DNA from: Trebouxia sp. TZW2008
Lineage: Eukaryota > Chlorophyta > Trebouxiophyceae > Trebouxiales > Trebouxiaceae
Assembly (NCBI GenBank): GCA_002118135.1
Contig: BDIU01000416.1
Location: 62,001 to 126,000 of the forward strand
Length of the DNA stretch: 64,000 bases
Reading direction: 5' to 3'
In this document: positions 375 through 63,854 of the stretch, one piece after another
How the letters are laid out: each line of letters starts with the position of its first letter
How positions within the stretch are numbered: position 1 is the stretch's first letter
Made by a program: the position numbers and the translations under genes
Notes under the pieces: generated by a model
Database searches by the model: none
Told to the model about the DNA's origin: nothing
What the model saw: only the letters and a program-made list of their open reading frames with translations

Positions 375-415
375 CTTGCCCACAAGGAGTTAGCAGCATC
401 ACTACCAAGCATCTG
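375..415 (-). repeat. 3' echo of the last exon of the Q/G/Y-rich gene
   Basis: On the minus strand this reads LGSDAANSLWASV, against LGSDAANSLWHSFF at the real C-terminus. It lies downstream of the intact exon and lacks its stop codon. Confidence 0.7.
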
Positions 416-447
416 AGGTCAAGCCTCTTCACAGGTGAAGCATCTAT

Positions 448-2153
448 CTAGAAGAAGCTATGCCATAAGGAGTTAGCAGCATCACTGCCAAGCGTTGCTC
501 CAAAGCCTCCAGCCATGCTACCCACCATGATGTTGCCCATTCTAGATGCAAAGTTGCCCATGCTGCCGTGCTGCTGCTGGCCCCCTCCACTAACGGGACC
601 TGCAGTGCACGCACAAGCATGCTCATACTGCAACAGTAGGTGAATCCTGATCTCTGGAACTGTGCAAAGCTTGCTTGTCAATGCAATTAACAGCATGCGT
701 TCTGACCAGTAGCTCAGTACACATTATGGTGGTATACAGCGGTCTAGTTGTTTGTCAATGCAATCAACAGCGTGGGTCCTGACCAGTAGCTCAGTACACA
801 TCACGGTGGTATACAGCGATCCAGAAACCCACCAGAGTCAACTGTACTGTAATGAGCACTGTAATGGCCGCCTGAGCTGTGGTTTTGACCATCAGAACAA
901 GATGCGCTGGGGACAAGCAAGAACATGAGCGGCTTAGGGCGGCAACAGGCTGCGTCACATGCATTCATGCCGTTGAAATACCATGGCAGCATCAACACAG
1001 GTGTGAACAGTCCAGCCGCATCCAAATGACAAGTGCAAGGCATAAACAAACAGGGGACAGAGCATTCAGCTTACCCAGGATTGGGGTTGATGACAGGTAT
1101 GGGCCAGGTATCATCTGCTGCTGGGCCTGCATCAAACATGTGTTTCTAAGCAGCAGGTGAGTATCTCACAATGTTCTTGCAGCAATGCAGCAGATGTATG
1201 TTGCAGATTCAGCACCACAAATGCATTTCTGCAGCAAAGTCATGGGGTAAAATTGACTCCTGCTGCAGAAGGCTGCACATGATGTGAAATAGGCATGCTG
1301 TATGAGCAGAATCAAGCTTTGCAGCAGTGGGTGAGTAAGCCCCTTGCTGCAATAAGCTGCATGGCATTAGGAAAGGAATGCTACATGCAGGGTTGATGAC
1401 CGCAGCAGGAAATCTGCCTGACTGAGCAATGATCAGCTGACATGGACAATGCTTTCAAGGCAGTAAGAAGTGCAGCGTTTCACAGAAGAATGCTTTAAGG
1501 GAATGAATAGAAGCAGCAACTCACTGGATAGGACTGCTGGTAGCCGCCTTGAGGATAGCCACCTTGAGAGTAGTTCTGCTGTTGGAAACCTGTCTGCGGG
1601 TATCCTTGATACTGTTGCTGTTGATAGCCCATCTGACCGCCACCGTAGTACCCAGGGTTGCCATAGTATCCCTGCTGCTGATGATGGTGGTGATGACCAA
1701 ACCTGCAACAAACACATGAACAGCAGTTTGAGACGAGGCCGGCGTCGAAGGTACTGGCTTGCATGGCCTGCCACTGGGTGTTGCACGCTTGAGATGAGCT
1801 CACCCTCTGGCGCCGTCGCCTGATGCGTCGTCGCCCAGACCTCTGCTCTGAGTCTGGTTCTGTGAAGTGTTGCTTGACATTTGGACGCTAGGAGGCGGGT
1901 TGGGTGGAATCTGCGCCTGGGCACGACTCTGAATTGCACTGATCACCTCCTGCTCGGACTGCAAGGGACGGTTGTCCAGCTCTTGCTCGAGAATGGCACA
2001 GATTGATTTGTAGCTGGCTTGACTAATAGCGTTGTTGTTCAACAGCTTCTGCAGGGGGACGAAAGCCGCAACAAAGGTCTGAAAGCGTGGGTCTTGCGGC
2101 TGCTCGCTTGTCTGCTGACCTTGCTGCATGCCTGCCTGCTGTGGGTTCATCAC
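448..2153 (-). CDS. Gln/Gly/Tyr-rich low-complexity protein, 4 exons, 243 aa
   Basis: Exons 2153-1804, 1702-1525, 1126-1075 and 599-448 join in phases 2, 0 and 1 with GT-AG borders and end in TAG, giving 243 aa. Residues 1-116 are polar and Gln-rich and start MMNPQQAGMQQGQQ. Residues 117-176 hold a His run (GHHHHHQQQG) and then repeated YYG, YQG and GGY units like a prion-like or RNA-binding low-complexity tail. The C-terminus is Gly/Met/Ala-rich (SMAGGFGATLGSDAANSLW). I do not recognise the family; such composition is common in condensate-forming or membrane-associated glycine-rich proteins, which is inference only. A truncated copy of the last exon lies just downstream at 375-415. An open stretch at 832-912 with plausible splice sites was left out because its phase does not fit. 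Confidence 0.72.
673..822. repeat. Intronic tandem duplication, about 79 bp x2
   Basis: Two adjacent copies of one segment (673-742 and 752-822) share a stretch beginning ctgaccagtagctcagtaca, with a few substitutions. They sit in the last intron of the Q/G/Y-rich gene and have no coding signal. Confidence 0.75.
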
Positions 2154-3970: not shown

Positions 3971-6900
3971 CTACAGCTCTTCTGAGGTATCTACCTTTGA
4001 GCGCAAACAGGTGACGCGCAAAGCCATAGACTTGCTGCGGGGCCTTGCACCAGTCTTGGACGGGACCAGCACAGGCACCACTGCAGCGTAAGACAGTGCG
4101 GTCTCAAGCAATGGTCTGATTTTGAAGTGATTGCCGCATCACAGTTTAGCAGCTGTTAGGGCAGAAAAGCAGTCTTTTCCTTGCCAATGAAAATGCACAA
4201 ACAGGGAGTGGCATACAATTGCTCACACAAGGAAGCTGCATACATGGCAGCTATAGGCATCAGAACACCATAGCTTAACAGCAGTGAGAGTCTATGACCT
4301 GCTGACTAGCTACACACAAAATCTGGTCCAACAATGTGTGTACCGCACGACATAACAGACATCCAGGCGCACGTGATTAGCCAGGAATCCGCTCTTCCAC
4401 TGCACTGACGCATTAGCCAATGTGGGTGCCTCAAGTAGGTTCAGTTGAAGGACATGCTTCAAAGCAAAATTCAAGGAGACTCTGAAATGGCTGTGACGCA
4501 CCTGTGTCGTACTGGGTCATGACTGGCATGTCATTGCCAGCTGCTCTTACTCCAGGGTCACTTTCTTCAATCCTCAGAGAATACACCAGGCAGCCAGGCG
4601 TGTCAGCTGCAGTCACCAAAACAAAACTTGCAGAATCTTGTGACTCCAAAATGTGCTGTGCTTTCAGCGTAGTCCAGGGTCACTTTCCTCAATCCTCAGA
4701 GAGTACACGAGGCGGCCAGGCGTGTCAGCTGCAGCCATAAAGCAGCACATCAAATGTTTGTAAGCCAAAACAGCACCTTGATAAGAATGAAAGCCAAAAA
4801 TGTACTGTGTCAACTTGCAGTGGGCTCAATAGGCGTGTGAGCTGCAGCCACCACCACAACAAGGTTATGGCAAGCAGTTAGAACTATGCTGTTACATGTC
4901 ATTGCATAAACCAGGCAGCTGGCGTGTGACAGCTGCAACATTCACAACGTTTCTGACAGCAGGCTCCCGGCAACTGCTTAGTCCTGTGCGACCAAAATAT
5001 GTAATGACCAGGCATGTCGACTGCAAACACCAAAACGGCAAGCGCATGGCAATAGAGAGGCTTAGCAGCCTGCTGTGACAGTTCAGAGCATACTGCAGCA
5101 GCTTGATTGCAGTCATCCCTACAGCACGTCCATGACACTAGCTCAGGAGGCTGTTGTGTTCAAACAGTGCACACACGATGCGTATTGCTTGCTCGCATCA
5201 TACAATGAACAATCATGCCAACAAGCTCATGGCAAAAGCTTGCTTGCATGCTGTGGTGGGACAGTTCATATACCAGGCATGTCATTGCTGTTGTTGCTCA
5301 GTGAACAGTGCATCAGCACTTGCATATGCAGCAAGCAAATGCTGTTCGCAGACTGGGAGAGGCTGACAAGGACAAGCTGGGCAGACAAGCGCTGCATGAG
5401 TAGATAGTGGGCGGCTTGGCTTCAACTTGACCGCAATGAGGGTGTGAAGCAGAGAGCTATGATCACTAGGTCATTTGAGTTTGCAGGCGTGCCGATCCTG
5501 ACACTTGCAATCAGCCAAACAAGCTACCTACACCATGCAACATCCTTGTGTTTAACGTGACGGTGACAATGGAGGCACAGGAACAGACCTGTGATCACCA
5601 GATTGTCATCATCTTGCAGGTGTGCCAGCTGAGCCTGGGTGGCTGCCACCTCCCGCACCTCACACCAGTTCCTGCACTCAAACCCCTTCTGTGTTGACGC
5701 TTTTAACGCTCTTTAGCACTTTCAGCCTTGCATTGTTCACAAAGCTTGTAGTCTCTGTCAAAAAAGTCTGCTTTGAAGTTTCTGCTTGTGCACCAGCTGG
5801 GCCTGAGTGGCCGCCACCTCCCTTAGCTCACACCAGTTCCTGCACACAGATGCTTGTATTTGCCGATTGATGGTGGTCACAGGACTGCAGTCAAAGCCTT
5901 GAAAATGCAGCTACAGCAGTGAGGGGTATCTTGAAGTTTGTGACTGACGTAGTATTGTTTCCTGCACCCACACATCATTTTTGAACATTTGACACTGCTT
6001 GGCAATTGAGACCTTGCAGTCATGACTGTTCAACAAGAACCTGCTTTCGTCAACTTGCAGTTTTGCCGACTGGGCCTGAGTGGCCGCCACCTTCCTTACC
6101 TCACACCAGTTCCTGCACACACCCTATTTTTTTGACATTATTCATGTTGCAAGTATCGTCACCCCTGCAGTGCCAATTGAGCCCTTATGGGTTTATTCCA
6201 GGTCTCGGTCTAGCGCGCAGCTCGCATCAGTTCCTGCACCGAACCTGTTGCAGCACTCTTGACACTGCTGAGCAGTTTCAGCCTTGCAATCAAAATCATT
6301 GACTGAGGGTTTGCTGCAACTATCCCGCACTTCACATCTGTCTCTGCAGCCAAGGCCATATTATGTAGCAAGTTGACAAGAATGGCCTTAACGGACGGCA
6401 GCACACCACTGAGTGGCTCAACAAGATCACTGAATTAAACACAGTCTGTGTGGAAACGAAAAAGATCACAAATTGTCGTAAACAACATGCCATTGTACCT
6501 TTGGCGCAAGCGCTTGTCTGCTGTAGGCCAATCTTTGAAGATGCGCATCATCTTGTCCCGTGTCCTATCTGGTATGCATCTCATGCCAACAAGTCTCCAA
6601 ACAACATAAAAACAGAAGACTACATAACATTTTACCTAATCACAGAAAACAGGTAGAAATATGAATTGAGTCATATGGTGACAACTCACCTTTGTGCCAG
6701 GAGCTTGTCTCCAGTGGGGCGGTCCTTGAAGATGCGCACCATCTTTTCACGGGTCTGTGGCTTGACCACGAGGTCAGACCGGTTGGTCTTGTGCATGAGG
6801 TTAATGAAGGTGGGCGGCGGTGGGGCGTTCACTATGGCTGACGACACTATCTGCAAGCACAGGTACCTCGGTAAGGCACAGCTGCCTGCATGGGGTTGCT

Positions 6901-9900
6901 GTCTGCTGGCAAGCGTCTGCATGCCAAGCTGTATGATGACATTTGATGTCGTGCAGCAAGTTAATGAAAGTCGGCGGCGGAGGGGCGTTCACTATTGCTG
7001 ATGACACTATCTGCATGCACAGCATCACTGGCTGTAGGATTGAGCTGCACAAACAAAATGCTGCTTGTGTGCATGCATGCATGCATGCGTGCGCTGTATG
7101 TGTTGACGCATATTCACATTTTGAAATGCAGGTCAGGTGTGAGCTTGTGTTTTCTGTGCTGCTCAAGAGTATGGCATTGCTGTGCAGTTTTGTGGGTTTT
7201 GTCATGTTTGCTGTCAATGTGTATGAAGCATCAAGCAGGGGTCACATCCCAGCCTCTGCACCCAAGGCTTCAGCATACAAAAAGAAAGGGCTGTTTTGGG
7301 GTCAGGGGGGGGGGAGGGGGGTGGGACGGGGTTTGTCTTTGACGTGAAGCGGTGGTTGTGTCTGACACTGTGCACCTTGGTGTGCTTCAGCAATGTGTGC
7401 AAGATCACTGGTTGTGTGTGTGTCTCTCGCAAAGGTCACAACCTATGTGACACAATGTCTTTGTGTGCATGCATGTTGATGCTTACCGGTGGCATGAAGC
7501 AGTGGTCATGTCTGAGCCTATGCACTGTGGGTTGGGTGTAGAGGCGGCCCACTGCAGCCATATGCACAGACATGAGGTGCTGGGAGGGGTGGGATGGAGG
7601 GGGGTTTGGGCGTGAGGGTTTGTGATGTCTGAAGATCTGGGAGGGTGCGGGCTTGCTCACCTGAGGCATGAAGCGGTGGTCATGTCTGAGCCTGTGCACT
7701 TTGGGTTGGGTGTAGAGGCGCCCCACTGCAGCCACATGCACATCGCCCCCCACAAAGCTGATGCGCACATTCTTGGCGCGGGCCAAATTCTGCAGACGTG
7801 CTATCAGATTGTGTCTCTCACCATGATGCTGGCCTGCAAGGACAGACTTTGGAAGAAGATACAAGTACAGCAGGAAACTTAGAGCGCAACAGGTTCTGCA
7901 GACCCGCCATCCACTTGTGTCTCTCACCATGATGCTGACCTGTATCAGCACAGAACCTGTACACCTTCAGCTCTTTTGTGGGATAAGCAGCAGGAACAAC
8001 CATCACTGGTGGATGCATTTGCACATGCCACTGAGAACTGATGTCAACACGCATCAAGCCAACGGAAGCAATGCATGCACTTTGATGCAGGTGATGCAAA
8101 GACTGTCTCTTGCATGCTTGCGAGATTGATGCAATGTTGTGCCATTTGCAGCATGGGCTTTGGAGCAGATGCTGCAACAAAACAACATGAGCACCCAAAA
8201 TACTTGGGGACAGGACCCAGGCAGCAAGCTGTGCTTGAATGCAGCAGAGCTTCTCACAAGAGTGCAGCCACGTCCACACACAATGCAGACAATGAGCCTA
8301 TGCAAAAAGAATTTGACTTGCCTGCATCCCAGTGGTCAATGATGTCGTCCAGCAGCTTGGCCTCTCCAAAGTTGTCTGTGATTTTCTGACCCAGCCCTAC
8401 ACAGCAATTGGACCCAGGATCACCTTTGTACCTTTGCAAAAAGCAAACAGTTTATCACAAGAGCAGTTGCGCAAGGCCAAAAAGCTGTCTGTGATCCTTT
8501 CACTCAAGCCTCAGTATCAATCATATGAGCAATAATGCAAGGTCATACAGTTGAAGCCCTGATGTTCTGAGCCTTCTTTTTGCACAACAAGCAAACCCCA
8601 CAGTAGAAGTCATGAGCATTTCTGACACGTCACATGCTCTGGTCTGCACAGCAGTGGGGTGCAACCATTGCTGATGACAGCACGATCACAGTTGTCAGCA
8701 GAGATAGTGCTTGATACGATTGGTCAGACGGAAACACAGCGTTCTGTTCCATTTTCTGAGCAACAGGTCACTGCATGACTGGCCTGTTACTGGCTAAAGT
8801 GTACCCAGTATGCATTTTGATTTCGTACTTGAACTTTGACATGAAACAATGACCACCCAGCTGGTATGTCTTGTGACATCAAAGCATGCAAACATGTCAG
8901 AAGCCACATTCATGCTAGGCAACATGTCTGTTGAGGTAATGCTCATCATCCTGAGTTGGAGCTTGTCTTCATTGTCAAGATGATGCCACTCCTGGCACAT
9001 CAAATGTTCTGACATGCCAATGCTATTAGGAGGCAACAGGCTGACCTGTCTTGGACATGATGTGGCCAACTTTGGCATTGTCTAGGATGCGCCAAACCCG
9101 CTCTTGCCCGGGCAGAGCTGCAAACACAAGTCTCATGGTTTAATGTTATTGTGCGTACTGCTTTTGCCTGCATGTCGGGGTTGCATCAGCAGCTTCACTG
9201 TAGCATCATGACAATGATCAGCAAGGGCCTGGTGAGACTATCATGCAACAGCCGCAAAAGTATGCATAGTGCCTTGCATGCTTGTTTGACTTGCATTGAC
9301 AACTTGATTGGACCAGCCTAGTACGACCAGAAACTGTTGTGAGGTTGATGCAACAGCTGTACAGCTAAACAGACTGCATGCATGCAACCAGCTACCAGCA
9401 GCAGTTGCATCACTTCCAAGTCTCAAGTCATGTCATCTCCCTGTGCTTTTCCCGATAAAAATATGATGTGCACATTGCATGCTGCTTCACGGTAACATCA
9501 GTGCTGCCTGGCGTGTTGTGCAGGTGAAGCGAGGGATAGGAATGCACCTGGAAACACGATTGGCACAGCAAGCAGGACAACCACGTGATGGCAGGAGTCC
9601 GGCAGCTTGTGCAGCAGCTGAAACACTGTTGTAAAGACTGTTAGACAGCACAGGAAGACATGGAATCGACAGCAGGCTTCAGGCGGATTATGGAATCAGG
9701 CCTTTGATAAGCACTCACCTGGAAACACTATGGGCACAGTAAGAAGGACAACCACATGGCGGCAGGACTCTGGCAGCTTATGAAGCAGTTGGAACATCTG
9801 ATTGTAGGTCGCCTCAGAAATGATCTCCTTCTTAGTGCGCTCTGCAGGACACAACAATGGTGCTGACGACATCGTGTATTATGCAACTTGCACCTGGAAA

Positions 9901-12900
9901 AAAGCTTTGCAGAGGGCCAGAGGCGGCATGTATTGGAATGTTGACACAGCTGTGATGAATTCCAAAGAAGGTAGATCATGCATACACTGTCAGCTTGCCC
10001 ATCAGCCATACTCAGCAAAGTGAGTGACAACATGATGTCACTACAAGGATCATCAAGCTGCAGCACCACACCCGAGATCCTTGACGCAGACTCATGATTG
10101 CAACATGCCAGCAGGCACTTTAAGTGTACCCATTTGCTCTAGGTGCAGTCACTGCAAGGACTGTCACGCAGCATCGACAAACGCTATATTTTCAGCCCTG
10201 ACCCATGCTGTGATGTGATGCGCAACACCGACCTGCTCTGAAGTTTGGAGCCACCATGCAAGTAGTAGGCCCAAACATGGCGTCATCTCAGACAGGCGGC
10301 AGCAGCAAACCTTGAAGTCAATCAGGGTTTGACCCTCAGTCGCAGGATGACCAGCAGGCAAAAGACTTGTGCTGACTCGCTCTGGAGTCTAGAGCCACCA
10401 GGCAGGTGGTGGGCCCAGACATGCGCAGCAGGGAGAACGCCTTGCGACAGTTGCATCAGACCCTAGACCCTTCGCACTCAACCCATATGTGCAATCATAT
10501 TCTGCAAGCAGAGGGCATATACTGACCTGCTCTGGAGTCTGGAGCCACCATGCAGGTGGTTGGGCCAAACATGCGCAGCAGAGAGAAGGCCTTGAGGCAG
10601 TTGGGGTTCTCATCGTCAGAGGGTCCCCACATATTGTTGTCTGTAGCTGCCCTATCTATGGTGGTCTGCTGCTGGAACAAAAGGTACATCTGGCGGGCAA
10701 TCTTGAACAGGCCTGCAGCACCAAAGTGATCTTCTGATCAAAACGACAGGGAGAAGGCCTTGAGGCAGTTGGCGTCCCCTTCTAGAGAGCGTCCGCACAT
10801 GCTGTGGTCTATGGCAGCTCTCTCTCTATTGTGGTATGCTGCTGGAACAGCAAGTACATCTGGCGAGCAATCTTGAACAACCCTGCCACAGCACCATCGT
10901 CTGTGATGCTGCTGCAAAGAGAAGGCTTTGAGGTAGTTGAGAACCCCGCTTCTGAGTTGGGTTTCCACATGTTGCTGCCTGTGGCAACTCTCTCTATTGT
11001 AGTCTGCTGCTGGAAAAGCAGGCATATCTGGCTTGCAATCTTGAACGAGCGTGCAGCACCACAACATCGTCTGTGACGCTGCTGCTGCAAAAAGAAGGCT
11101 TTAAGGTAATTGGGGTCTTTTCTGAATTCGGTTTCCACATGTTGTTGCCTATGGCAGCCCTCTCTACTGTGGGCTGCTGCTGCTACAGCAGGCACATCTG
11201 GCTTGCAATCTTGAACGATCCTGCAGCACCACACTAATCTGTGACTTGATGGCCTTGAGGAGACATTTCTTGACAAACTGCAGTGTGGGCAAAGCCCTTT
11301 TCCTCGGTTTGCAAATTTTAGCAATATCCCTGATCTTTTGGTGTAACAGCACTGCAACATCACAAGAGGCAGTCGCCATGCATGCTGCTTGGTAACAGTG
11401 CCAACATGTATGCTGTGATGGTGTCAAATGCTGCTGTAAACGACTGGGGGATAGCATGTCTTTGCATTTGTGTAGCAACAGCAAGGGATAGAATACAAAC
11501 AGAAGACAGCATTGATGGCAGCAGCAGCAAGAAGAGCAAGAACGCCTAAAGCTGATGAGGGATATCAGGCTTGTTTTTGCTGCTACAACCAATGCTGCTC
11601 TATTCCAATCATCTTCTGCCCTATGCATGGGGCACCAGACTGAGTTGTAATAGAGAGCATGGTTGCTTGCAAGATGTTTGAGAGAAGTCATGCCCACAGA
11701 AAGAGATCAGCCAAAACATTGCAAGAGGGAAGACTGATGGGATTCACACAGAGCACACACCTCATCATTATACTTGTTACACAATGCATGCATCTTGGAG
11801 CAGGATACAAAACCTGTGTTACAGTCACCTTGAAAGACACTGCAGGTGAGCAGGCCATGAGGATAGCTGCCCCATCCATCAAAGATGTCATGGTCATCAC
11901 ACACCATCATCTGAGGTATGCATTTCCCTGCCAATCTTTGCTGGGGCAAAGACTGCACGCACTTGATAGCTGCTGCAAGTGGAATTCATCAAGCAGAAAG
12001 AATGTGACAGTCCCTTTGAAAGACATTGCAGGTGAGCAAGCCCTGAGGATAGCTGCCCCACCCATCAAAGATGTCATGGTCATCCCACACCATCATCTGA
12101 GGTACGCATTTCCCTGCCAATCTTTGCTGGGGCAAAGACTGCACGCACTTAATAGCTGCTGCAAGTGGAATTCATCAAGCAGAAAGAATGTGACAGTCCC
12201 TTTGGAAGACATTGCAGGTGAGCAAGCCCTGAGGATAGCTGCCCCACCCATCAAAGATGTCATGGTCATCTCACACCATAATCTGAGGAATGCATTCCCC
12301 TGCAAAGCTTTGCTAGGGCAAAGACTGCACGCACTTAATAGCCGCTGCAAAGGGAGTTCACCAAGCAGAAAGAATGCGACAGTCACCTTGAAAGACGCTG
12401 CAGCTCAGCAGGCCATGTGGGTAGCTGACCCATCCATCAAAGATGCCCTGGCCAGCCCACATCGTGACCAGTTTCAAACGCGCTCATGCAATCTCCTTAT
12501 AAGACAAGTACACCAAAGAATGTGTCACTCGCCTTGGAATACACTGCAGGTCAGCAGACCATGTGGATAGCTTCCCCACCCATCAAAGATGTCATGGTCA
12601 TCCCACATCATGACCTGAGGAATACACGCCAGGGCATCTGATAGGTGCTTACTGCACCAGTGCTGCCTATAGTGGGTGAAGTAGAAGAATGTTGCCTCAT
12701 TGGCCATCTCTTGTGACCAGTTGTATGTGCTGAGCCCCTGCACCAAACAGGAATTGGAGCTTCAAAGCGACCATGCTGCTGACAATGCATGGGGTAGCAG
12801 AATGTCTGCTGGTAGAACAATGCCTCATCAGCCATCTCTTGTGACCAGTTGTACGTGCTGATGCCTTGCACTCAAAGGCAGTGTTGTTTGAAGTAGAAGC

Positions 12901-15900
12901 ATGGCGCACCAGTGCTGGCGGTACTTGGTGAAGTAGAAGAACGTTGCCTCATCCGCCGTCTCTTGGGACCAGTTATATGAGCTCAGGCCCTGCAATGGAA
13001 CATAAAATCAGCTGAAGTAGAAGAACTGGTTCAGTAGTGCTCAGACAGGATGCTGCAACAGTGTTGGCGGTAGTGGGTGAAGTAGAAGAAGGTTGCCTCA
13101 TCCGCCATCTGCTGAGACCAGTTATCTTTGCTCAGGCCCTGCATTACCGCAAACATGTGTTTCAGAAGTATGGTTTCACTTGTGCCGTTGTAAGTGCTTG
13201 AACCCTGCAATGTAGTGAGCATAGTACGGAAATGGAAGTATGCTGCACAAGTGCTGGCGGTAGTGCGTGAAGTAGAAGAACGGTGCCTCATTGGCCATCT
13301 CCTGGGACCAATTGTATGAGCTCAGGCCCTGCAAAGAAGTCGTCAAGCTGGCTGACAAGCTGACAGGCCCTCACAATATGCCACAGTCATTTGAGCCTTG
13401 ATCAACAGGTCCATGCAGATATAGAGTAGGGAGTGGCCTGACAACAGGGTGGTGGACAGACGCTAGGATTGTGGGTCTGACCTTGCTGCCAGACTCAAGC
13501 CATTCCGGGACAGGTTTGCCCAAGAAAAGCTCAGAATGTACACACTGTTGTCTGAGTGGAGCCTCAACCATTAGACGTACAGTCAACAGGGTAGAGCAGA
13601 CAGTAAGGTGAAGGGTCTCACCTCTCTGCCAGACTTGAGCCACTCCTGGACATGTTTGCCTGAGAAAACCTCATCATTGTAGATCTGATCCCCACCCCCC
13701 ACCATGGCATGTAGGGGCGCTTGGGCATGCTGTCGCAGCACATCCCTCCATAGCACAAACTGCACAAAGCGCTAAACTTAGATTTTGACGACTGAAAACA
13801 GATATCAGTTGCTTGTTGTTGCTCAAACGTTGATCATTGTAGATCTGGTGCCCATTCCCCATCATGGCATGCAGGTGGGCCTTGCTATGGCGACTCAACA
13901 CATCCCTCCACAGCACAAACTGCAGCAACAACAAACTGCCATATGTGAATTTGTGGACTGCAATCCCCATTAGACAAGCAACAGCAGTCAGCAGCTAGTT
14001 CTTGATGCGCAAACATCGCTTGTTTTATCCCCGCCCCTCATCCCGGCATGCAGGCCCCCCCTCCCCTTGATTGGGGTCTTGCTATGCTGACTCAGCACAC
14101 ACCTTCACAGAGTAAACTGCAAAGAGCACAGCATGTGAGAACCAAGGCTGACCACCGTGCTGTCCAACGAGTGAACATCAAACAAGCATCCTGTGACATG
14201 AGCATAGGGGTCACTAACAGCTGCCTCTGATTGCTGTCAAAAGATCATTGTCAGCACGGGTGATCTGTATACATGGAGCAACATGGGTACAGCCAGCTTT
14301 GAGTTTGCATGAGGGTCAATAGGGTGACTCATATGGGCCACCCAACTTGTCATGATTACCATCTCATAGTGCTGCAAAGACAAAGTCAGCATATATGATT
14401 TGCTCACATGCACCCAAATGGCAATGGACGACACAGAAAGCTAGCCTTGTGCTTGCTGCACAGTGTGAAATGTACCTCGTATGGGCCGCCCCATTTGTCA
14501 TGATCACCATCAGCTGAGAGGCCATTACAGGAGTGGAAGCCCCAATGCCAGGTTTGGCTTGCCCCTGCCACAAAGAAGCTCCACCTGCAAAGGTACAGAT
14601 AATGTTGCGAGCTAACGCTTGTGTGTTCTGAGACAACAAGAAAATCACTTGCAGAAGATGTCTGTACAGTAATCTTTGGATATGATAACTGCATTGGTCA
14701 CCAAGAAAACTGTCCTTACATCAAATTATGATTACTCAGAAGTACCACTGTAGTCAGAATGCAGTGCTTGATTCCCAGTTGCATTGTCCTTCCATAGAGA
14801 ATGTCCTTATGTCAAATGTCCTGATATTGAGATATTGCTGTACATACAGATGTTTACATATCTACGCACCAGGTTGGACTTGCCCCTTTGATAATTAGAT
14901 CCCAATAGCAATGAGATATAGCTGGACTCAGATGTCTATCATTGCAGTTAGCTGACAATATCCGTGCTGAGATACATCTCTATATCCAGCCATATCTACC
15001 AATATATCTCACGGTGGATACCTAGTGAATTATATCTGCAGCTACAGCAACTTCACAAGTATTCAAGCTGTGAATTTGCACTGTCATGCCTCTGGAATAT
15101 GTGTACCTGTGGCCTCTAGAATCTACATTGATGGTGTAAAACACCTCCTGCTTGTGCTGCTGCACTTGGACTGCAACGTCAACAGGATTGCAGATTTAGC
15201 ATTGTCCCAAACCTGTGGCCTCTAGGGTCTATATTCATGATGTAGAGGGACCCCTGATCCTGTTGCTTTTGGATTGCTGTTGTAAACATGCTTAGGCCAA
15301 ATCCAAGCAGCTCTCTTGTACCTGTGGCCTCTAGGGTCCACATTGATTGTGTAGAAGACCTCCTGCTTGTACTGCTGCACTTGGACTGCAATGTTAACAG
15401 GGTTACAGATTTAGCATTGTCCCAAACCTGTGGCCTCTAGGGTCTATGTTGAAGGTGTAGAGGGTCCCCTGATCCTGCTGTTGCTTTTGGATTGCTGTTG
15501 TAAACATGCTCAGGTCAAGTCCAAGCAGCTCTATTATAACTGTGGCCTCTAGGGTCTACATTGATGGTAAAAAACACCTCCTGCTTCTGCTGCTGCACTT
15601 GGACTGCAATGTTAACAGGGTTGCAGATTTATCATTGTCCTAAACCTGTGGCCTCTAGGGTCTATATGCATGGTGTAGAGGGACCCCTGATCCTGTTGCT
15701 TTTGAATTGCTGTTGTAAACATGCTTAGGCCAAATCCAAGCAGCTCTCTTGTACCTGTGGCCTCTAGGGTCCACATTGATTGTGTAGAAGACCTCCTGCT
15801 CCTGCTGCTGCACTTGCACTGCAATGTTGAAGCGCCAGCAGGACCAGCCAAACATCTCTGCCAGCAGTATGGGCTGTATCACATCCAGCCTGCCATCCTG

Positions 15901-31679: not shown

Positions 31680-39423
<7,744 letters not shown>

Positions 39424-45484: not shown

Positions 45485-45516
<32 letters not shown>

Positions 45517-48500
45517 ACACTGGTGGGTTGCAGGCGTATGTGTCGCGCATGGCAGGCCTGCTGCAGCTGTTTGACGGTCATGAAGAGTCGCAAGCTGGCA
45601 AGCAGGTGGAGGCACTGGTGATCAAGTCAGTGCAAGCATATCATCTCCTGTCCACTAGCTGCTTGTGTGCTGCAAGCATTGCAACAGCTAAGGCGCAACA
45701 GTCATGCAAACACAACATTAGTGCGACCACAGCATGAGTCTTCCATCAGCTAACTGTGCATTGCAGGCATATGTATCGCGCATGGCAGGCCTACTGCAGC
45801 TGTCTAACGGTCATGAGGAGTCGCAAGCTGGCAAGCAGGTTGAGGCGCTTGTGATAGAGTCGGTACGGCTTGCAGCAGCCAAGTCATTGCTGGACCCTGT
45901 AGGCTTGCAGCAGGTATTCCAGGCGCGCATGCGGGAATGCAGGCTGCTTACGCAGCGGTCGGAGCCTGTTGCTGAGATGTGGCCAAATATCCTGGTATGC
46001 CAGTTCAAAACTCTACTGCAGCTTCAGCTCTTGTTGTGCTGATTAGCTGATGCATGCAGTACAGAAAACAAAAAACTGCTTGTGATTCAGCGCTCAGATC
46101 CTGCCGCCTGGATGTGGCCCAGTACTGAAATATGCTGAGCCTTTGACCATATGCACATGAAAGGTCAAGGATGCTTTGCCAGTGGTTGCAAAACAAGTAC
46201 CCTGATGCTTTGACTTCTTTGAACGTATGTTTATTTCTATAGGTCTGAGCAGCGGGGATGATGGTGCTGATATGAGCCCACCATCTCACAGTACTCTGCA
46301 CTGAGATGCACATCACTTGCTGGGAGCTTGCACAGACAGTTTGCACGGCCTGCTTCAATGTTCTGCAGGACGCCTTGCACTTGAGCCAGCACAAGCACAC
46401 TATTTGTCTGGTTGCTTGCCTTACTTCATACCAAGCCTGATCTCAGTTAGCTACCATGCATTGAGGCCAATTTCATAAAGTTCATAAAGTAAAGGTTTCA
46501 TGTAGCTACAGCCAATGTTTGGCAATACAATGCAATGCGAGTACAAAATCTGTAGACACATTCAAACATATCATTGTGCACAGCTAAATCATTACAACAG
46601 ATACAACACCCATATTGGATGCTCAATTCAAGAGGGTGCTCAAAGAGTTCTGCGAGAGTAATTGCCTTTGTTTGAAGGAAATGGCAATCATTACATGCTG
46701 TAGAATGCATTGCACTTGAGCCAGCAGCAGGAAGGTGTTTGCTCGCCTCAATAGGCTAATGGTGCCTGCGCAAAGTCCACCAACAAACTGCTTCAATGTC
46801 TTCAATCTGCTACAGGATGCTTTGCACTTGGGCCGGCAGCAGATACAGGAGCTGATGGCACTGCGGCGCGTCTCTCTGCGCAAGATGGCTCAGCTGCACA
46901 CTACCACTCATGTTGCTTGCATCACTCCATACTCCAAATATCTTGCATATCACAAGAGCACTAATCGATCAACCTAGATTTTCCCTTTCTGTTGATGCAG
47001 GATGCATTGCACTTGAGTCGGCAGCAGATACAGGAGCTGATGGCTTTGCGGCGTGTTTTCCTGCCAAAGATGGGCCAGCTGCTGCGTAACAGACAGCGCA
47101 TCAGCAGAGCTCTGCAGGAGTCTCAGTTGTGCGTGGGTGAGGACATTGATCCTGATGGGCCGACGACGCAGTACACTGAGGCTAACGATGTGCTGCGGGA
47201 CCTCAAGTCCAACCTGAGGGATGATAAGCTGCTGCTCATGCAAGTCCTGGCATCCGTCTGGCGCAAGGTGTGTCTGTGACAGTCAATCCTTGAACTACTG
47301 AGGCCAGATCTGTTACAACTTGAAAACTTGAGTAGCTGATGCACACCCAAACCCTGGTCTCTGTCTGGCACAAGGTAGAGTTGCAGCATTCGCGCTCCCT
47401 GGGGTCTGATCTGTTACCCCTGATAGGTGCAGTAAGTGCTGCTCATGCAAGTCCTGGCATCTGTCTGCAAAAGGTAGCACTGTTTCATGCACCCCTCCAC
47501 CCCCTTGGGCTTTATTTGTTAACCCCAAGGGATTCAGTAGCTGCTGCTTCTGCAAGTCTTGGCATCTGTCTGGTGCAAGGTAATTTTACACTTGACCACC
47601 TTGAGCCTGACTTCCAAACTGCAAAACTCTGGGAACTGCAGGCTTCATTGCCAACGCCACTGACTTGAAACGTTCATGTGAACATAACTCATCACCTGAG
47701 ACACTCAGCCTTGTGGTTCACCTTGAATTGGGTCAGCGGCTGCTGGCTTCACTATCAACGCCACAACTTGACATGGCACATCCATGACAAGGTGAACACA
47801 TATGCTTGATGTCCTTGAGCCTTCTCGTTTGCCTCAAGCAGATATAAGCTGCCGACCTGTTGGCACAACCTCTGATGGAAATACTGCTGCAAGCACAGCG
47901 TGCCTCTGTTGCAATACGTTAAGCCGGCCCCAATGATCTCTAAAATAATACCAGGACATGCAAAATGTCACAACGGCCCAACCCTCAAGCAAACATGGCA
48001 GCTGTTAGCATCTGTGCTGCTAATCACACGTCACCTGGTGATACTGCTTCAACAAACACCATGTTCTGCCGTGCTGGCATAACTCTGAAGGTAAATATGT
48101 ACTGTAGATCATGAGACCCTATCAGCTGGCCACAGTTGTAGTCATGGCTCACCCGTGGGTGCCAGACACTGGCCCGGTCCTGGATTTAGTGGCCCAGGCA
48201 GAGGGGGAACCCCGTGCAGAGGCGCTTATGGGGATTGATAGGGTACCTGGGACCAGGGGCATAGGCTCTTGGACGCTGGAGTGGACTGGCACATTTGCTA
48301 GCTCTCTTACTACAGGCCCTGACGGTAACTACTGCTGTGACATGTCAGGTCTCTTACTTCAGCGCAGCATAGCTGCTGACGGTGAGAGTCAGAGAAATCA
48401 CTAGGCAGGTTTTGAGATCATGCAGCATCTTGCCTGTTCTTTGCACTGCAGAGGCTGGTGTTTTGCTTGTGCTTTTCTGTAACTCGCGCTTCTGGAGACG

Positions 48501-50230: not shown

Positions 50231-53200
50231 ATGCAGGCGCTCTGCCTTGAGCGTGTGCCGTGCTGTCTGGCTAGTTCGAGCCGCGTGCGACCCCAGACTC
50301 GCTGCCAGCACTCAGTTGTGAGAAGCGCACTAACAAACCAGCGAGTAAGGCCTACTGTAAAGCATAGTTGATACCGCAAGTCGTCAACCGTCGAGCGATC
50401 CTCGTCTGCGCTTCTCCGAATCGTGGTAGCAGAGATCTGCCAAGCACAGCTGAGTACTCGACCTGTGAGTGCATGCTTGGTCTTGCAGGTGCAGGCAGCA
50501 GGGTTTTGGAGCCACCACAGTTGCAGAAGGCCTTCAAGTGCTGTGCATTCTCAATCTGAGGGCAACAAGGGTGGTGCAGTGGACCGTGCAATGTATATGG
50601 CTCAGTTAGCATTGATGGTCAGCTTTGATATCTTCTGGCCTGCTCACTACCAACTTACTGCAGCCCTGTACTAATGTTGGATCTTGGTGCAATCTGAAAA
50701 ACATTGACCTTTGCATTTGCGAGACTCTGAGCACTTGTCATGTTTGCCGCAATTGCAGTCAGCGAGTCACGATACTTAATACCAACATGCAACATGTAAT
50801 TTCTGCACACTGTGCAGCAGCTGCTAGTGAAGGCATGTCTTGCCCAGTGTCTAAGGATATGGGCAGCCTTGACATGCTGCAGGAAATGATGGACCCTGAC
50901 ATGAAACCTCTGGTCAAGCAGCACTGTACCAGATTTTCTGATACTCAATTTGCAGCTTACTCAGACTTGTGTGCATTGTTGCAGGATCCAGAAGTCTTGA
51001 AGTTTCTCAGTGAGGATATGCCCAAGGATTTTGCCAATCCTGAAATGATGAAGGAAATGATGGAAGACCCTGACATGAAACCCATGGTGGAGGAACATTT
51101 GAGGAGTCTCAACAATGTAAGCAGCATGGGCATAAAATGCGTGTAGATGCATCAAAAGTACTACTTACCATGCATGAGCTTCAGGCTTTCTTGCAGAACG
51201 TTGTTGCCATGTCTCTATGTACGCATCTTGATCAGTAGAAAATGTCTCACATTATGAGAACAAAGTCATCTTGCTGCTCTTAGAGATGAGCAAGCCTGGC
51301 GAGACAGAACTTGGGCCCACACACAGCTAGCACGTGAGCTTGAATGCGTAATTGATGTTGTTGTTATTGATTATTAGCGTCAACCAGTGACTGTTGCATC
51401 TTCAAATTGCAAGTGAACTTGTTCAATGTCAAGAGCGCTTGGTCACTAGGGGAAGAAGGAGAACAGGGTCTTCAATTGTCACAAATCAGCAAGTCATAGA
51501 CATGTTTAGCTTTGCAGAAATTCAGCTCATCACATGCATTGCAGCACACTTGACTTGCAACAGGAGCTGCTGCATTTGTCATGCAAAAGTTTGGAGGTTG
51601 TGCAGAGGTGTGGAACCCATGCAGGCATTAGCTTGCAAGAGTTTGGAGTTCATGCACAGCACTGAGAATTGCAATTGGGTCAGGTTGCAAGAATTTGAAA
51701 GTTGCATGAGCCTCATACAGGGACTTCTTTCTGTTACGACTGCTTTGATTCCCAAGAAAGCTGTCATCAAATTGTCCTTACTCAGAGGTGCCACTGCACT
51801 TAGAACGCAGTGTCCTTACAAAGCGAACTTACTGTACAAGCACCACTTTGAAAGGGTGTTTCCTGTTGTGCAAAACCTCCAGAGAAAGAGAGAACAATAA
51901 GGAGCAGCACCTCAGTTGTTGTCCAAAGTGTTGAGAGTCACACAAGCATTGATCTGTTTGTTGATGTCCCGTGATGCAAATTGCAATCAATCTAAGCCTC
52001 CGCATCAGGAGCCAATTGTTTGAATGTGCAGAACTTTGAAAAGGGCATGTATGACAACACCACAAGCCGCATGACGGGACAAGCATCAGTCTAAGCCGTT
52101 TGGTTCATTTTGCAGAACCTTGAAAAGGGCATGTTTGACGATATCACAAGCCGTATGACCGGACAAGCTGCAGAGAAGTTCCAAGATTTCAACTTTGACA
52201 AAATGTATGAAGATGTTGGCGTGAGCCGTGGGAAGCTGCTGGACTACGTCAGAGATATGTCCGCAAACCCTGAGTTGGCCAAGGTAAGGGACAGTTTCTA
52301 GCATGTGTAGTTGCGGCTGACGAAACTTGTGCCCCTAAACTGCCAAACCCTGCCTGGTTTCATGGAGTGGCTCATGGTGAGGGCCGAGGGGAGAAACAGT
52401 TTCTAGCATCTGCATTTGAGATTGACATGTCTGCCAATCCTGAGCTGGCCAAGGTAAGGGACAGTTTCTACAACAGTGACCTCTCTTTGTAACGACTGCA
52501 TTGGTCACCAAGAAATGTGTCCTTACATTGAATTGCCCTTATTCGGAGGTACCGCTGCAGTCAGACTGCAGATTGGTCCCCAACGGCGTTGTCCTTACAT
52601 TGAGATTGTCCTTCAATTGAGTGTCTTTTCAATGAGAGTGATTTGAATCTGCTTTTGGCATTGACATGTCTGCAAATCTTGGGATGGTTCAAAGGAGGCA
52701 CACCTAGCATTTGCAATCAAAGCGGATACACCGTCAAACCCTCAGATGGCTCAGGTAAGAAATGCTCTCTACCAGCTCTGTTTGAGATTGTTTTCCTTGC
52801 TGCTACAACTGTGTGAGTGAGGAGTCAATCTTGTTCTCATGCGCTCTACACACAGGTGGCATTACCACAGTAACGTTAAGGGTTGCTTGTAACATCCTGA
52901 TACTGATAGAGACCATGTTGCACAGCCAATGGGTTTGTGAGTTGTAGTCTTGCTCTGCGCCTTCTGATGTGTATTCACATCAGCACTGACCTGAGCAATG
53001 TGCGTCTAATTTGCGAATGCAATATCGGCGTTACCATTTTCAAAATGGTGTTCTCTTGGTCCCTGGTGGGTGTCTGAGTAGATGTTGTATCCAAATTTCA
53101 ATAAAGTTATAAACAAGAATGTATTGAGATGTGCATGATTTGCAGTGGAAGTAACAATTGACATCAACATGCACTCAAATATATTCAATGAAGGCCTAGA

Positions 53201-55590: not shown

Positions 55591-55599
55591 TCCTGAAGC

Positions 55600-59700: not shown

Positions 59701-62700
59701 CCCCCTGCTAGGTGCATACAAAACAGTCGACTCCCTCCAACAATTCTGGCCAAGTTGGTTGGCATTTTGATGTTGCTGACAAAAAACAGCAGCTTGCTGC
59801 AAAACTGTAAGGGCTACATGCTGTCCAGCGTGTTCAATGCATGTGAGCTGAGCACATTTGCAGCACAAGTGCGATAATCTTGCCATTGTGCAACACTTCA
59901 GCTGTCCATGAAAATAGACAGCATTCAAGCTGTGCAATTGCAGCTGCATATTGGGTTCTGGGTGCACAGAATTGTGCTCAAAGGTTGTAACACAGCCAGT
60001 AGGCACCATGCTTGAGCAACAGCCATTTGGTGATCTCAATCGAGGGACACTAGGATGTTGCTTTTGCATGCACTGATGTTGATGGCTTTGCTGGGCCTGA
60101 ATTTCACTGCAAAGTCGGATTTGCAGGTTCAAGGACGGTAAGCAGAGAATCTACGACAAGGAAAAGCAGATTGCCGGCAAAGTCAAAGAGGGCGCTCGCC
60201 ATGCTGGGGAAACAGCTGAGCACGATTTTGACAGGTACAACACTGTTGCACACAATACTGCTTTGAGCCCCAACAGCATGCATAATCACGTGTCTACATG
60301 CTTTGTCTGTGCGGCCTCAAGCGAGCTTCATGTTTGGGCCCTTCAGCCAGCACACTGACCCAATAACACTGAACCAGGCAAAACACTGATCAGCTGCCTT
60401 TCATTGCCAGACACATTCACCTGTGCTTTCAAGCCAGGAAGTCCGATGAGTCACATCTGGCTCCCTACCCTGGACTGTAAATTCTATTGACTGATTGATA
60501 ACATCTTTTGCTTGTGCAGCAGTGACTTGGCGATACGTCTTGCTCCTTGCTATGGGCCCTGTTAAGCTCAAAATCTAGACGAGATATGCCAGCCTTCCTG
60601 AATGTGTGCTTGGGGCGAATGGGTATACTGACTGTAGGTTCAAGGACGGCGAGAAGAAGTTGGTTGATGGCGCCAAGCACATCAAAGATGATGTCAAAGA
60701 AAGCTTTGGAGGTGCTGGGCATGATGCAGACAGGTGAGCCACCAGCATTCGTTCATTCAATCACTAAATATAGTTGCAAAACCCAGGCTTCAAAACCCAG
60801 CAACCAAGTACACGTCAGCGCAATCAGCTGCTTTCGCTGCCAGCATTGCCTGGTGCTACTCCAGCATTGCCTTGTGTCAGCATGTTGTTTGCAGGGGCTT
60901 GAGTCCTGCAAGAGCCCTCGCTGCATCTGAGCATGGCTCTCCCTGTCGTCGCACCCTATGCTTGCATGTTCACTCGGCCAAGCTGTTTATAGGTTCTGCT
61001 CCTGCCACCTATGCTTACACAGTTGCTTGGCCAAGCTACTTGTCCTGTTGACCAATTCATGGTGTCACTTGCTGCAGGCAGGAGCCTTGTGCTTGCATGT
61101 TTGTTTGGCCGAGCTGCTTGTCATCTTGAGCTCAACAGAGTGCTAGCGACTGCACATATCACCCTTAGAGTGCTGTTGATTGCAGAGGTCACCCATTCAC
61201 AGTGCCATTGACTACAGAGATTATCCAATCACAGTGCTGTTGACTGTAGGAACCACTCAGTAAGACTGCTGTTGACTGCAGGTACCATTCCAGGCATCAG
61301 CAATACAGAGATCACAGCTCAGCTGCCAGGGATAAGGCCTCTACAGCAGCAGACAACACAGGCAGGGCCTTTCAGCATGCTGGTAGGCACGCTGCAAACA
61401 GGGCAGAAGAAGATGCGCAGTGGGCAGCTGACAGAGCATCAGACAGAGCCCATCAAGGCACCAGATACGCTGCTGACAATACTGCAGAAGGCGCTCAATG
61501 GGCAAGGGAAAACGCTGACAGAGCTGGTGACTCACTGGGTCGCGCAGCAGCACAGACAGAGGGCTACGCCAGGGACAAGGGCAGAAGGGCTGCACGCTAC
61601 ACTGCTGACTCAGCCAGGTGGGCAGCTGAGGAGGCGCATGATGGCGCTGAGTCAGCAGGCCACAAAGCAGGCAAAGCAGCGGTGGCCACTGAGGAGTACG
61701 CTGAGGCAGCCAAAACAAAGCTGGCCAGAGGCACTGCATCAGGCATCAGGCGTACAGCAGAAGCAGCCCATGACAGTGCAGAGACTGTAGGTGAGTACGC
61801 TGGGGATGCTGCGGCAGCCACGGAAGAGTATGCGCAGGCAGCCAAGACCCAGCTTGCAAGGGGCACAGCCAAAACGGCCAAGTGGGCAGCAGAGTCAGCC
61901 CATGACAGTGCAGAAGCTGTTGGTGAGTACGCTGGTGAAGCTGCTGCAGCAACTGAAGAGTATGCCGAGGCAGCTAAAACCAAGCTTGCCAGAGGTACAG
62001 CCAAAACAGCCAAATGGGCAGCGGAGACAGCTCATGACAATGCAGAGAGCATTGGTGAGTACGCTGGAGAGGCTCTGCACGCTACAGAGGAGGCTGCGTC
62101 AGAAGCTGCTCATAGCACTGCACGCGGCACAGCACATGCTGCGCAATGGACTGCCCACAAGCTGCATGACAGTGCTGAGAGCACTGGCGAGAAAGCAGGC
62201 AAGGCTGTGGCGGCTACCGAGGAAGCTGCTGTTGATGCTTCCATAGCAGCTGCTGATACTGCTGAGTGGGCAGCCAAGAAGAGTGTGTCTGGGGGTGCAC
62301 ATGCAACTGAATGGGCCGCCACAAAGGTGAGTCATGCACAATGCTTGTGTCTTCCAATCATTGGCATGCAGTATATGCTGCACAGCTTGCAGAGTGCCTT
62401 TTGCAATATGTTGATCCAGCTTGAGTCCTGTGCCAGCTTGCTCTCGCCACCATGCAACTGCATTGTGCATACTCCAGAAAGCCTTTTTGTTTGCATGTGT
62501 TATGTTTGATGCAGCTCATGGACAACAAACTGTTGAGATGCACGTGCAGATGTGCAAAAGCATCTGCATTCCTGCTTCAACCATTCGTTCTGTACAGAAG
62601 AGTGTGCTTTGCAATTGTCATGCTTGTCTTGGGAGCTGTTATAGGATGCTCAAAAGGGTCAAATTCTGCTGCATCTCTGTTGATTACCTGTCATCCTATG

Positions 62701-63854
62701 CTGTTGCCAATGGCAAGGAGCTACGTCACTTCTCCAATCAGTCTTTCGTCACGTGCATGAAACCCTTCAACCTATACTAGCTCAAGCTCTGTTGTGATGC
62801 ATTGCAGGTGCATGACAATGCCGGAGGCATTGGGCATGCTTTGGGTAGCCTTGCTGGCAAAGCAGTGGCAGCTGCTCAGGGCACAACAGCTGCCGTAAGC
62901 CACAAGGTATGTCCTTTCACAAAGCAATGCCTTGCTGTTGCATGCACTTCACTGTGAAGTGTGACAGGCGCATGTCCTTGCTGGGGGATCAAGCACGCCT
63001 TAGGCAACCTTGCCGGCAAATCTGTGGCAGCTGCTCAGGGCACAACAGCTGCAGTCACCCGTAAGGTACATGCTGTTGGCATGAGTGCTGTGCTGTTGCA
63101 TGCACTGCATTGAGGTGCCACAATGTCTGTGCATTGCGCACTGCCTGTTGTGATGATGTTTCATGTGGACAGCTGGCACTTCACCTGGTCCAAACCTCGC
63201 TCAGAAAGTCATACAGCAGAGCTTGCACAGTCAGCACAGTAAGGCATGCTCTTTGGTGTGTCTAATGACACAAGCGCATCTGTGCCTTTTTAGCAACATC
63301 ACATCTCACTGTAGCCTTCTGTTGATAGGCTTTCATCCGTCTTTGTTGGCAGTATCAGTGGCTGCATTCAATATGATGCTCTGGGCTGTTCATCAAAGGC
63401 TGCTTCATTGGTTTACCTGATTACAGCCTGGCTCGAGGTCATCGCCTGCATGTGTAGGCTCGTGACTTCCTCTCAGATGCAGAGGAATTTGCTGAGGATG
63501 CTCAGGAGGCAGTCAAGGATGAAGCTGGCAGACTCAGACGCACTGACCCTGCTGCCAGGCTCAGAGGCAGAGACCCAATTCCAAGCAACACTGAGGATGT
63601 CACATCTTGGCGCAAGACCCACCCCCACCACAGCAGGGACCCCAGGGGTTCAGACGCAGACACCTACAGACAGACAGCAGAAGGCTCCTGGCAGTCTGCT
63701 AAGAAGCAAGCAAGCGATGTTGCTGATGACATGAAGAGGAAGTATGATGACACTGCTGAGCAAGTGAAGGGCAAGAGCCAACAGGCAGCTGATGATGTGA
63801 AGGGCACTGCAGATGCAGCTGCTGATGAAGCCAAAGGATGGGGTAGCTGGTTTG
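56701..63854 (+). CDS. Large LEA-like (late embryogenesis abundant) protein, 12 exons seen, at least 826 aa, open at window edge
   Basis: Exons 56701-56852, 56978-57019, 57428-57558, 58086-58169, 58562-58613, 58894-59091, 59530-59604, 60127-60234, 60638-60733, 61282-62326, 62808-62906 and 63458-63854 join in consistent phase. The gene continues past the edge after ...GWGSWFG and a gtaagt donor. It has an acidic run (QDDDDDEDVDDEEW), three related exons beginning RFKGGEQR, RFKDGKQR and RFKDGEKK, and a long Ala/Lys/Glu/Thr-rich part with three 42-residue repeats (ATEEYAEAAKTKLARGTA) and further relatives. The last exon has SAKKQASDVADDMKRKYDDT and QAADDVKGTADAAADEAKG, like LEA group 3 helices. 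Such proteins are disordered in water and fold into amphipathic helices on drying, protecting membranes or enzymes. The role in desiccation tolerance is inferred. No signal peptide was seen. Confidence 0.87.
57798..57850 (+). repeat. 3' echo of LEA exon 3
   Basis: Reads QPKTSIFGGLKDAAG with the same gtcag donor as exon 3. The first two thirds of the exon are missing. It lies downstream of exon 3. Confidence 0.9.
58020..58076. repeat. Short tandem repeat, 13-bp unit
   Basis: Three to four tcagtcagcaaac units directly before LEA exon 4. Confidence 0.85.
59168..59230 (+). repeat. 3' echo of LEA exon 6
   Basis: Reads SRTAEHVFNR with a gtggcc donor, against GRMAEHDFDR at the end of exon 6. It lies downstream of it. 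Its phase at the donor matches, so in-frame use cannot be excluded. Confidence 0.75.
59612..59682. repeat. Short ATCATTGAC-type repeat
   Basis: Degenerate repeats of catcattgac and catcactgac in the intron after LEA exon 7, creating low-complexity ORFs on both strands. Confidence 0.8.
60945..61281. repeat. Repeated acceptor segments before LEA exon 10
   Basis: Between 61150 and 61281 four units of about 38 bp each end in an acceptor-like gattgcag, gactacag, gactgtag or gactgcag; only the last is joined to the exon. Just upstream (60950-61135) a unit of about 65 bp with cggccaagctg is repeated three times. Confidence 0.8.
61688..62066 (+). repeat. 126-bp (42-residue) coding repeat in LEA exon 10
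   Basis: ATEEYAEAAKTKLARGTA-type units start near 61682, 61808 and 61934, exactly 126 bp apart, each ending in VGEYAGDA, VGEYAGEA or IGEYAGEA. They are in frame within one exon, so this is a true protein repeat. Confidence 0.92.
62980..63068 (+). repeat. 3' echo of LEA exon 11
   Basis: Reads HALGNLAGKSVAAAQGTTAA followed by TRK and a gtacat donor; the true exon reads HALGSLAGKAVAAAQGTTAA. The exon head is eroded. It lies downstream of exon 11. Confidence 0.88.

Follow-up and report, generated by a model that had tools for sequence, protein, structure and literature searches.

The window analysed here is a 64,000-nucleotide stretch of the genome of Trebouxia sp. TZW2008 (contig BDIU01000416.1, positions 62,001 to 126,000); positions below are counted from its first letter. 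Three of its genes can be defined by homology, namely those for the mitochondrial Rho GTPase Miro, a PhoD-like phosphatase and a bZIP-like protein. Their introns contain partial copies of the exons that they adjoin. The copies are direct, local and one-bordered, and they decay without clear coding constraint.

The Miro gene lies on the reverse strand (31680..39423) and has 10 exons, placed by spliced alignment to the homologue P0001. Its product of 695 amino acids is 66% identical to P0001 (100% of the query) and 67% identical to P0003 (94%); the best named protein is from Trebouxia sp. (67% identity). The hand-spliced gene matches the P0001 alignment at every exon, with the exception of the last nine bases. 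The PhoD-like phosphatase gene, also on the reverse strand (4502..16912), has 13 located exons, and its 3' end lies beyond them. Its product is 68% identical to P0121 from Trebouxia sp. C0004, and its exons were derived from P0121 and P0122. The bZIP-like gene is on the forward strand (42499..48329), with 7 exons derived from P0241 and P0242 and with both outer ends approximate. The protein is 65% identical to P0241, and all four of its named matches are from Trebouxia; 'bZIP-like' is our own label, presumed from a basic motif, as P0241 has no listed Pfam family.

The exon borders were set by spliced alignment to these Trebouxia homologues and corrected by hand. The corrected set of 30 exons, which served for the copy search, has no internal stops, and all its introns are GT-AG save two GC-AG introns. 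Both are in the PhoD-like gene, with donors CAAG/GCGAGT (exon 5, 12533-12737) and CAG/GCAAGT (8322-8396); exon 9 ends at 8322 with a GC donor and exon 10 starts at 7833. One of the two adjoins a copy array in which some copies have GT donors. Exon 5 is a single exon, because P0121 to P0123 run contiguously there.

Each exon was searched against its own two introns at a score of at least 17 (27 introns, 20,213 bases). This yielded 53 copies, 29 in upstream and 24 in downstream introns. Controls at this threshold gave a match in 3/540 shuffled introns and 2/522 introns from other genes; raising the score to at least 19 left 0/540 and 1/522. A truncated copy was found on the side of the border that it contains in nearly every case: 27 of the 29 upstream copies start within 4 nt of the 5' border of the exon, the other two starting at exon positions 24 and 25, and every one of the 24 downstream copies ends no more than 8 nt from the 3' border, with the 5' border reached by none of them. 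One upstream copy extends to within 8 nt of the 3' border as well. No reversed copy was encountered among the 53. The polarity of exon ends described in the first-pass annotation is therefore real.

The spacer between copy and exon has a median of 85 nt, and the offsets of the nearest copies are mostly 107-240 bp. The clearest case is PhoD-like exon 5 (intact at 12533..12737, with the GC donor given above and copies on both sides), which has four copies of its 5' part upstream (12812..13328) and four of its 3' part downstream (11829..12494), the latter mostly at 186-bp spacing. In total, 17 of the 30 exons have a copy. That copies occur at most exons, as had been stated, holds for the PhoD-like (10/13) and bZIP-like (4/7) genes and fails for Miro (3/10). 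In the bZIP-like gene, codons with an intronic copy are much more conserved relative to the Trebouxia homologue (0.87, n=148) than codons without one (0.65, n=444); elsewhere conservation differs little or not at all (PhoD-like 0.86 versus 0.81, Miro 0.67 in both).

The pattern had been reported in nine genes. Homology establishes it in three, and elsewhere the exons are those predicted by our gene finder. The gene finder merges same-strand neighbour genes, hence only exons were taken from its output; a Pfam search of six predicted pieces gave 2OG-Fe(II) oxygenase as the sole named match. In the rest of the window, 25 predicted exons of at least 40 nt yielded 10 copies, eight of which obey the rule, while one is internal and one near-whole (62970-63065). 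In 18 stretches outside the window, 133 predicted exons yielded 80 copies. Of these, 66 obey the rule and 14 are internal: 36 of 46 upstream copies hold the 5' end of the exon (10 internal) and 30 of 34 downstream copies hold the 3' end (4 internal). No reversed copy was found among these 80. The controls gave 0/234 in shuffles and 2/842 in non-adjacent introns of the same gene. Thus, the pattern is not confined to the window, and the polarity held in an alignment of introns to exons with shuffled controls, proposed earlier as a check, over the three genes and the 18 outside stretches. The single exception noted in the first-pass annotation (50850-50945) contains a real match, of 50853-50914 to 51024-51088. 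This match looks internal and lies in one open frame; it may be a repeat within coding sequence, not an intronic copy.

Repeats found independently of any exon model are local and direct. At a threshold of 35 bits, the window contains 103 direct and no inverted pairs up to 3 kb apart, and each of three shuffles gave no direct pair. The 18 outside stretches (165,883 bases) contain 213 direct and 4 inverted pairs, with no direct pair in one shuffle each; 15 of the 18 have at least one repeat pair. Local direct repeats are thus far above chance. At 35 bits, 5 direct pairs and 1 inverted pair in the window are separated by more than 3 kb (shuffles: 0 direct and 0-1 inverted), and one exon probe searched against the whole genome matched only itself and its own copy. 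The densest sampled stretch (L017, C370:30001-40000) has 43 direct repeat pairs covering 51% of its 10 kb, and includes an array of ~227 bp made of copies of the 5' end of a predicted exon.

The remaining copies are distributed as follows. In the Miro gene (reverse strand), exon 6, intact at 34112..34361, has six upstream copies of its 5' part with a period of ~183 bp (34416..35431), the farthest of which starts at exon position 24. Exon 4 (36561-36737) has a downstream copy of its 3' part (36422..36551), and exon 8 (32973-33211) has an upstream copy of its 5' part (33231..33275). A 29-bp tandem repeat with 98% matches in a Miro intron (33962-34073) is among the few clearly young repeats of the window.

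In the PhoD-like gene (reverse strand), copies upstream again hold the 5' part and copies downstream the 3' part of the exon. Exon 2 (15755-15897) has six downstream copies (15107..15700), in an array with a 215-bp unit and two copies per unit, and two upstream copies (16090..16315), the farther one weak. There is one downstream copy of exon 3 (14476-14584; copy 14328..14363) and one of exon 7 (9719-9841; copy 9548..9633). Exon 4 (13622-13759) has one copy on each side (upstream 13833..13919, downstream 13486..13533), as does exon 11 (6690-6850; upstream 6943..7010, downstream 6499..6564), while exon 6 (10527-10712) has three upstream (10747..11216) and two downstream (10233..10453). Exon 10 (7661-7833) has an upstream copy (7878..7937), a downstream copy of 94% identity (7491..7568) and two weaker downstream copies (7345-7380, 7224-7261). 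Two upstream copies (5783..6112) belong to exon 12 (5589-5671), at 5783-5839 and 6039-6112, the second spanning 75 of the 83 nt, and one of 92% identity (4670..4728) belongs to exon 13 (4502-4606).

In the bZIP-like gene (forward strand), upstream copies of the 5' part are found for exon 3 (44066-44239; two copies, 43726..43954), exon 4 (44715-44990; one copy, 44572..44673), exon 5 (45767-45994; two copies, 45318..45631, the farther one starting at exon position 25) and exon 6 (47001-47267; two copies, 46705..46897). Exon 6 also has three downstream copies of its 3' part (47329..47579), and exon 5 a weak downstream copy (46088-46124). Two further copies are on the forward strand beside gene-finder exons: an upstream copy (52032..52089) of the 5' part of predicted exon 52116-52283, and the near whole-exon copy (62970..63065) of predicted exon 62808-62906, which is an exception to the one-border rule. 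Such copies call for caution in annotation, as at three or more sites the gene finder took an intronic copy for an exon (43870-43953, 45534-45617, 12910-12989).

A tandem duplication that spans one exon border leaves a truncated copy on the side of that border, so polarity is to be expected. It is a geometric consequence of one-border duplication and not a new rule; the unusual features are how far the pattern extends and how abruptly similarity drops at the border. The direct, local orientation expected of such duplications is observed both in the window and outside. Given the unit and exon lengths measured here, events placed at random should yield ~6 whole-exon and ~14 exon-internal cases alongside 61 of the one-border kind. 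Whole-exon copies number 0 of 53 on a strict count (one is within 8 nt), 0 of 80 outside and 1 of 10 in the rest of the window, and no exon-internal repeat was found in the three genes, which account for 25 of the 61 borders. Where a border has several copies, two of them share their exon-internal end to within 5 nt at 15 of 27 borders (7.7 at random, standard deviation 2.0), as expected if they descend from one founding duplication. In the outside stretches L004 and L005, internally repeated predicted exons (792, 468 and 268 nt) may be coding repeats or retained intronic copies. In the window, a long predicted exon contains a tandem repeat of 132 bp (44 codons) that keeps the frame (61623-62150); the protein is one that we take to be LEA-like, a label of our own.

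The differences between copy and exon at the three codon positions are 0.138/0.116/0.274 in the three genes and 0.153/0.123/0.242 over all 133 copies. This is the pattern of one drifting, unconstrained lineage combined with synonymous change in the exon. Of the 27 small insertions and deletions (indels) in copies, 25 would shift the reading frame. At amino-acid differences between copy and exon, the homologue sides with the exon 231 times and with the copy 25 times, agrees with neither 87 times and is unaligned 6 times. The copies thus evolve about as neutral sequence. Over the 133 copies of the window and stretches L003-L020, mismatch is lowest (0.12) over the 10 nt nearest to the border and is ~0.18-0.19 at 30-60 nt. 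One result points the opposite way: in-frame stops in the copies of the three genes are fewer than the neutral expectation (6 versus 24 in one simulation, 10 versus ~24 in a finer count), although frameshifts are not avoided.

The shortage of stops is one reason to consider whether the copies are maintained as decoy splice sites or as parts of alternative exons. The AG is kept in 29 of 31 nearest upstream copies, and the GT in 9 of 11 nearest downstream copies of the three genes. However, indels often shift the frame of the copies, which also gather missense changes, and over both exon sets 19 of the 28 nearest downstream copies retain the GT (one border being 6 nt off). The copies do not look like alternative or mutually exclusive exons, since none of the 53 fully reaches both borders, their codons are neutral and they carry frameshifts. 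Such maintenance is therefore very unlikely. A coding function of the copies is likewise disfavoured by the frameshifts and missense changes, despite the low stop count. The idea that copies end, on the exon-internal side, at cryptic splice sites was rejected: two cases looked convincing, and there is no enrichment over 59 borders.

Copies derived from a diverged homologue (a hybrid or introgressed allele) would explain a conserved exon part next to an unalignable intron. In a few copies the differences from the exon are nearly all at third positions (e.g., 2/0/12 and 1/1/11), and borders vary in their third-position share a little more than expected by chance (P 0.026). Against this, a significant excess is found at 3 of 57 borders with at least six differences, which equals chance, and the third-position share is 0.47 rather than above 0.5. 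The codon positions over these 57 borders thus make such an origin highly improbable. An artefact of assembly can practically be dismissed: the 68.5-Mb assembly is a draft of 527 contigs, in which young identical repeats could be collapsed, but the copies are ~17% diverged from the exon, often frame-shifted and mutually unlike, and misassembly cannot make such sequences.

The copies are old. The mean identity of the nearest copies is 0.83, and none of 69 reaches 95%, where a constant rate of birth predicts ~15%; this gives no support to the very high present rate of duplication that had been proposed. Their flanks have mostly lost similarity. In an averaged profile of 13 upstream and 10 downstream borders, with two arrays excluded, similarity reaches background ~15 nt into the intron (apart from one noisy downstream bin of 0.50 at +20), while the exon parts are ~83-85% identical. 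Inside the exon the profile is at ~0.9 upstream and 0.7-0.9 downstream; on the upstream side it falls from 0.89 just inside the exon to 0.48 at -6 to -10, and then to 0.2-0.4, like the control. Aligned globally, the flanks reach an identity of 0.55, and unrelated flanks 0.50. Flanks above the 95th percentile of the control number 26 of 105 in copy-exon pairs and 39 of 92 in copy-copy pairs, whereas simulated neutral tandem duplicates have a flank identity of 0.78 and exceed the control in 100 of 105 cases.

That the offset matches the unit length, and that the intron part was duplicated too, can be seen in arrays. In several of them the exon and intron parts match alike (e.g., 0.97/0.97 and 0.95/1.0), and flanks match in the true arrays of Miro exon 6, PhoD-like exon 2 and exon 4 of outside stretch L013. 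Most other pairs lose similarity near the border and retain weak residual homology. Of the 21 pairs with at least 90% identity and an offset of up to 400, none is a full-unit pair; one pair of 94% identity over 292 nt, in the PhoD-like exon 2 array, lies just outside this limit at an offset of 433. Only 2 intron-intron repeats without an exon copy were found in the three genes, and fast decay of introns makes few expected.

The first-pass annotation explained the pattern by plain tandem duplication across one border, followed by neutral decay and nothing else. This accounts for the polarity, the arrays and the neutral decay, and the duplication itself stands as the source of the geometry and of several plain tandem arrays. 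As the whole story it is unlikely, given the lack of full-unit pairs, the flank counts well below those simulated, and an excess of third-position differences between copies that is described below. Of 16 simulated settings, only one kind fits both the retained borders and the lost flanks, namely that in which native intron decays 2.5-3 times faster and indels are small. None of the eight equal-rate settings, with smaller or larger indels, gives ~96% retained borders together with ~25% recognisable flanks. Larger indels that scramble the introns were rejected as the cause of the lost flanks, as they would also strip the borders from the copies. Either the exon-derived copies decay 2.5-3 times more slowly than native intron, for example through gene conversion from the exon, or copying starts at the splice borders.

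The second option is the main alternative to conversion. Here, repair synthesis would prime at the splice-site core (the acceptor TGCAG or the donor) and copy only the exon end with 5-12 nt of intron into the intron nearby, without the intron flank. It would fit the sharp step in similarity at the upstream border, the lack of full-unit pairs among the 21 most similar, the mere two intron-intron repeats without an exon copy, and some copies of 26-48 nt with identities of 0.92-0.97 whose anchored flank extension is at control level (high-identity copies with such flanks are found at PhoD-like exon 2 upstream and at bZIP-like exon 6 on both sides). However, several arrays carry matching intron flank, weak traces of flank homology are common, some flank similarity shows even at the 0.94 copy of PhoD-like exon 10 once the alignment is allowed to shift, and exon-internal ends are shared above chance. 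Moreover, by our arithmetic only ~6 visible intron-only duplicates would be expected under fast intron decay. We therefore consider border-anchored copying unlikely, though not negligible. It is a shade less likely still that a past burst of splice-border-primed synthesis across many multi-exon genes enlarged the introns from their borders; if it did, such copying, and not random tandem duplication or transposons, made the introns of this genome larger. The earlier proposal that introns grow mainly from their borders stands only as a lower bound, as recognised copies make up 4,138 of 20,213 intron bases in the three genes (about a fifth) and 5,109 of 68,499 in the outside sample (~7%).

The reading that we prefer, and to which we give a little less than an even chance, is that the copies are old one-border tandem duplicates that were kept because splicing tolerates them, and whose exon part was re-templated by gene conversion. 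Short tandem duplications spanning exactly one exon border, mainly in the past, would have left the copies as remnants. Duplications that covered both borders or fell within an exon would have changed the mRNA and may mostly have been lost to selection. One-border copies would be harmless because exon definition requires two nearby splice sites; a truncated exon end with a single site would probably be overlooked by splicing and hence drift. In the least certain step, gene conversion from the constrained exon might repeatedly re-template the exon-derived part, which would then outlast the duplicated intron part. Under conversion, what is seen today would mostly be an exon end cut off at the splice-site core.

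Conversion from the exon would produce the 2.5- to 3-fold faster decay of native intron. Neighbouring copies differ from one another most at third positions (0.218/0.167/0.258, where composition predicts 0.142/0.134/0.144), an excess with P = 4e-6 if sites are treated as independent. Permutations give shorter identical runs than those observed (z 3.65). An outside copy in stretch L015 (offset 428) is 94% identical to its exon, while its flank is at 0.90 to a sister copy and below 0.65 to the flank of the exon. Conversion is favoured by the third-position excess between copies, by the long identical runs and by exon-internal ends that are shared despite differing spacers.

Several observations weigh against this reading. 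No direct conversion tract was found, clustering of close mismatches reaching only z 1.6, and the rise in mismatch at the border edge that tract ends might predict is absent. The third-position excess is present in only 20 of 30 families (sign test P 0.10), and exon-internal ends are unshared at 12 of the 27 multi-copy borders. Identity is unimodal at ~0.83 with no young copies, so conversion at random ages needs further assumptions. A fixed unit length predicts a strong negative correlation between copied length and spacer, yet r is -0.23 (P 0.08). Finally, outside the window 3 of the 131 predicted exons have internal repeats, so such events are not wholly purged.

The genome of this alga lets one follow, from one exon to the next, which short duplications are tolerated by splicing and how exon sequence turns into intron. 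Exon definition in green algae could be tested here on naturally occurring cases, as could the idea that gene conversion by exons keeps intronic copies alive.

The kind of event is known; its extent, strict polarity and border-sharp decay set this case apart. A full-text search of the literature gave no such rule among the matches listed, which is not proof of its absence. Nothing like the pattern appears in the passages located by term in PMC6652019, PMC12712428, PMC11523091 and PMC3446292, and term searches of two Trebouxia genome papers and of the Asterochloris and Coccomyxa papers show no such pattern.

The review PMC3443670 describes intron gain by tandem genomic duplication, in which an exonic segment bearing AGGT is duplicated and becomes a new intron. 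Our case resembles this in the short intragenic tandem duplication, the restoration of the mRNA by splicing and the intron sequence derived from an exon. It differs in that the copies lie inside introns and consist of a splice core and an exon end, with a median spacer of 85 nt; they are not introns formed by a duplicated exonic segment between two AGGT sites. Small tandem duplications at break ends (Schimmel 2021, PMC8355091) belong to a class of mechanism that gives short direct tandem copies like those seen here. The abstract of that paper describes no bias for splice borders, whereas in Trebouxia only old survivors filtered by splicing are visible. Introners (PMC9860276) likewise repeat intron sequence genome-wide; they copy themselves into many genes, while each copy here matches its own exon. 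Lastly, the duplicated alternative exons of Dscam (PMC3236188) are also tandem exon copies within one gene. Those are used as mutually exclusive exons, whereas the copies in Trebouxia are one-bordered and drifting.

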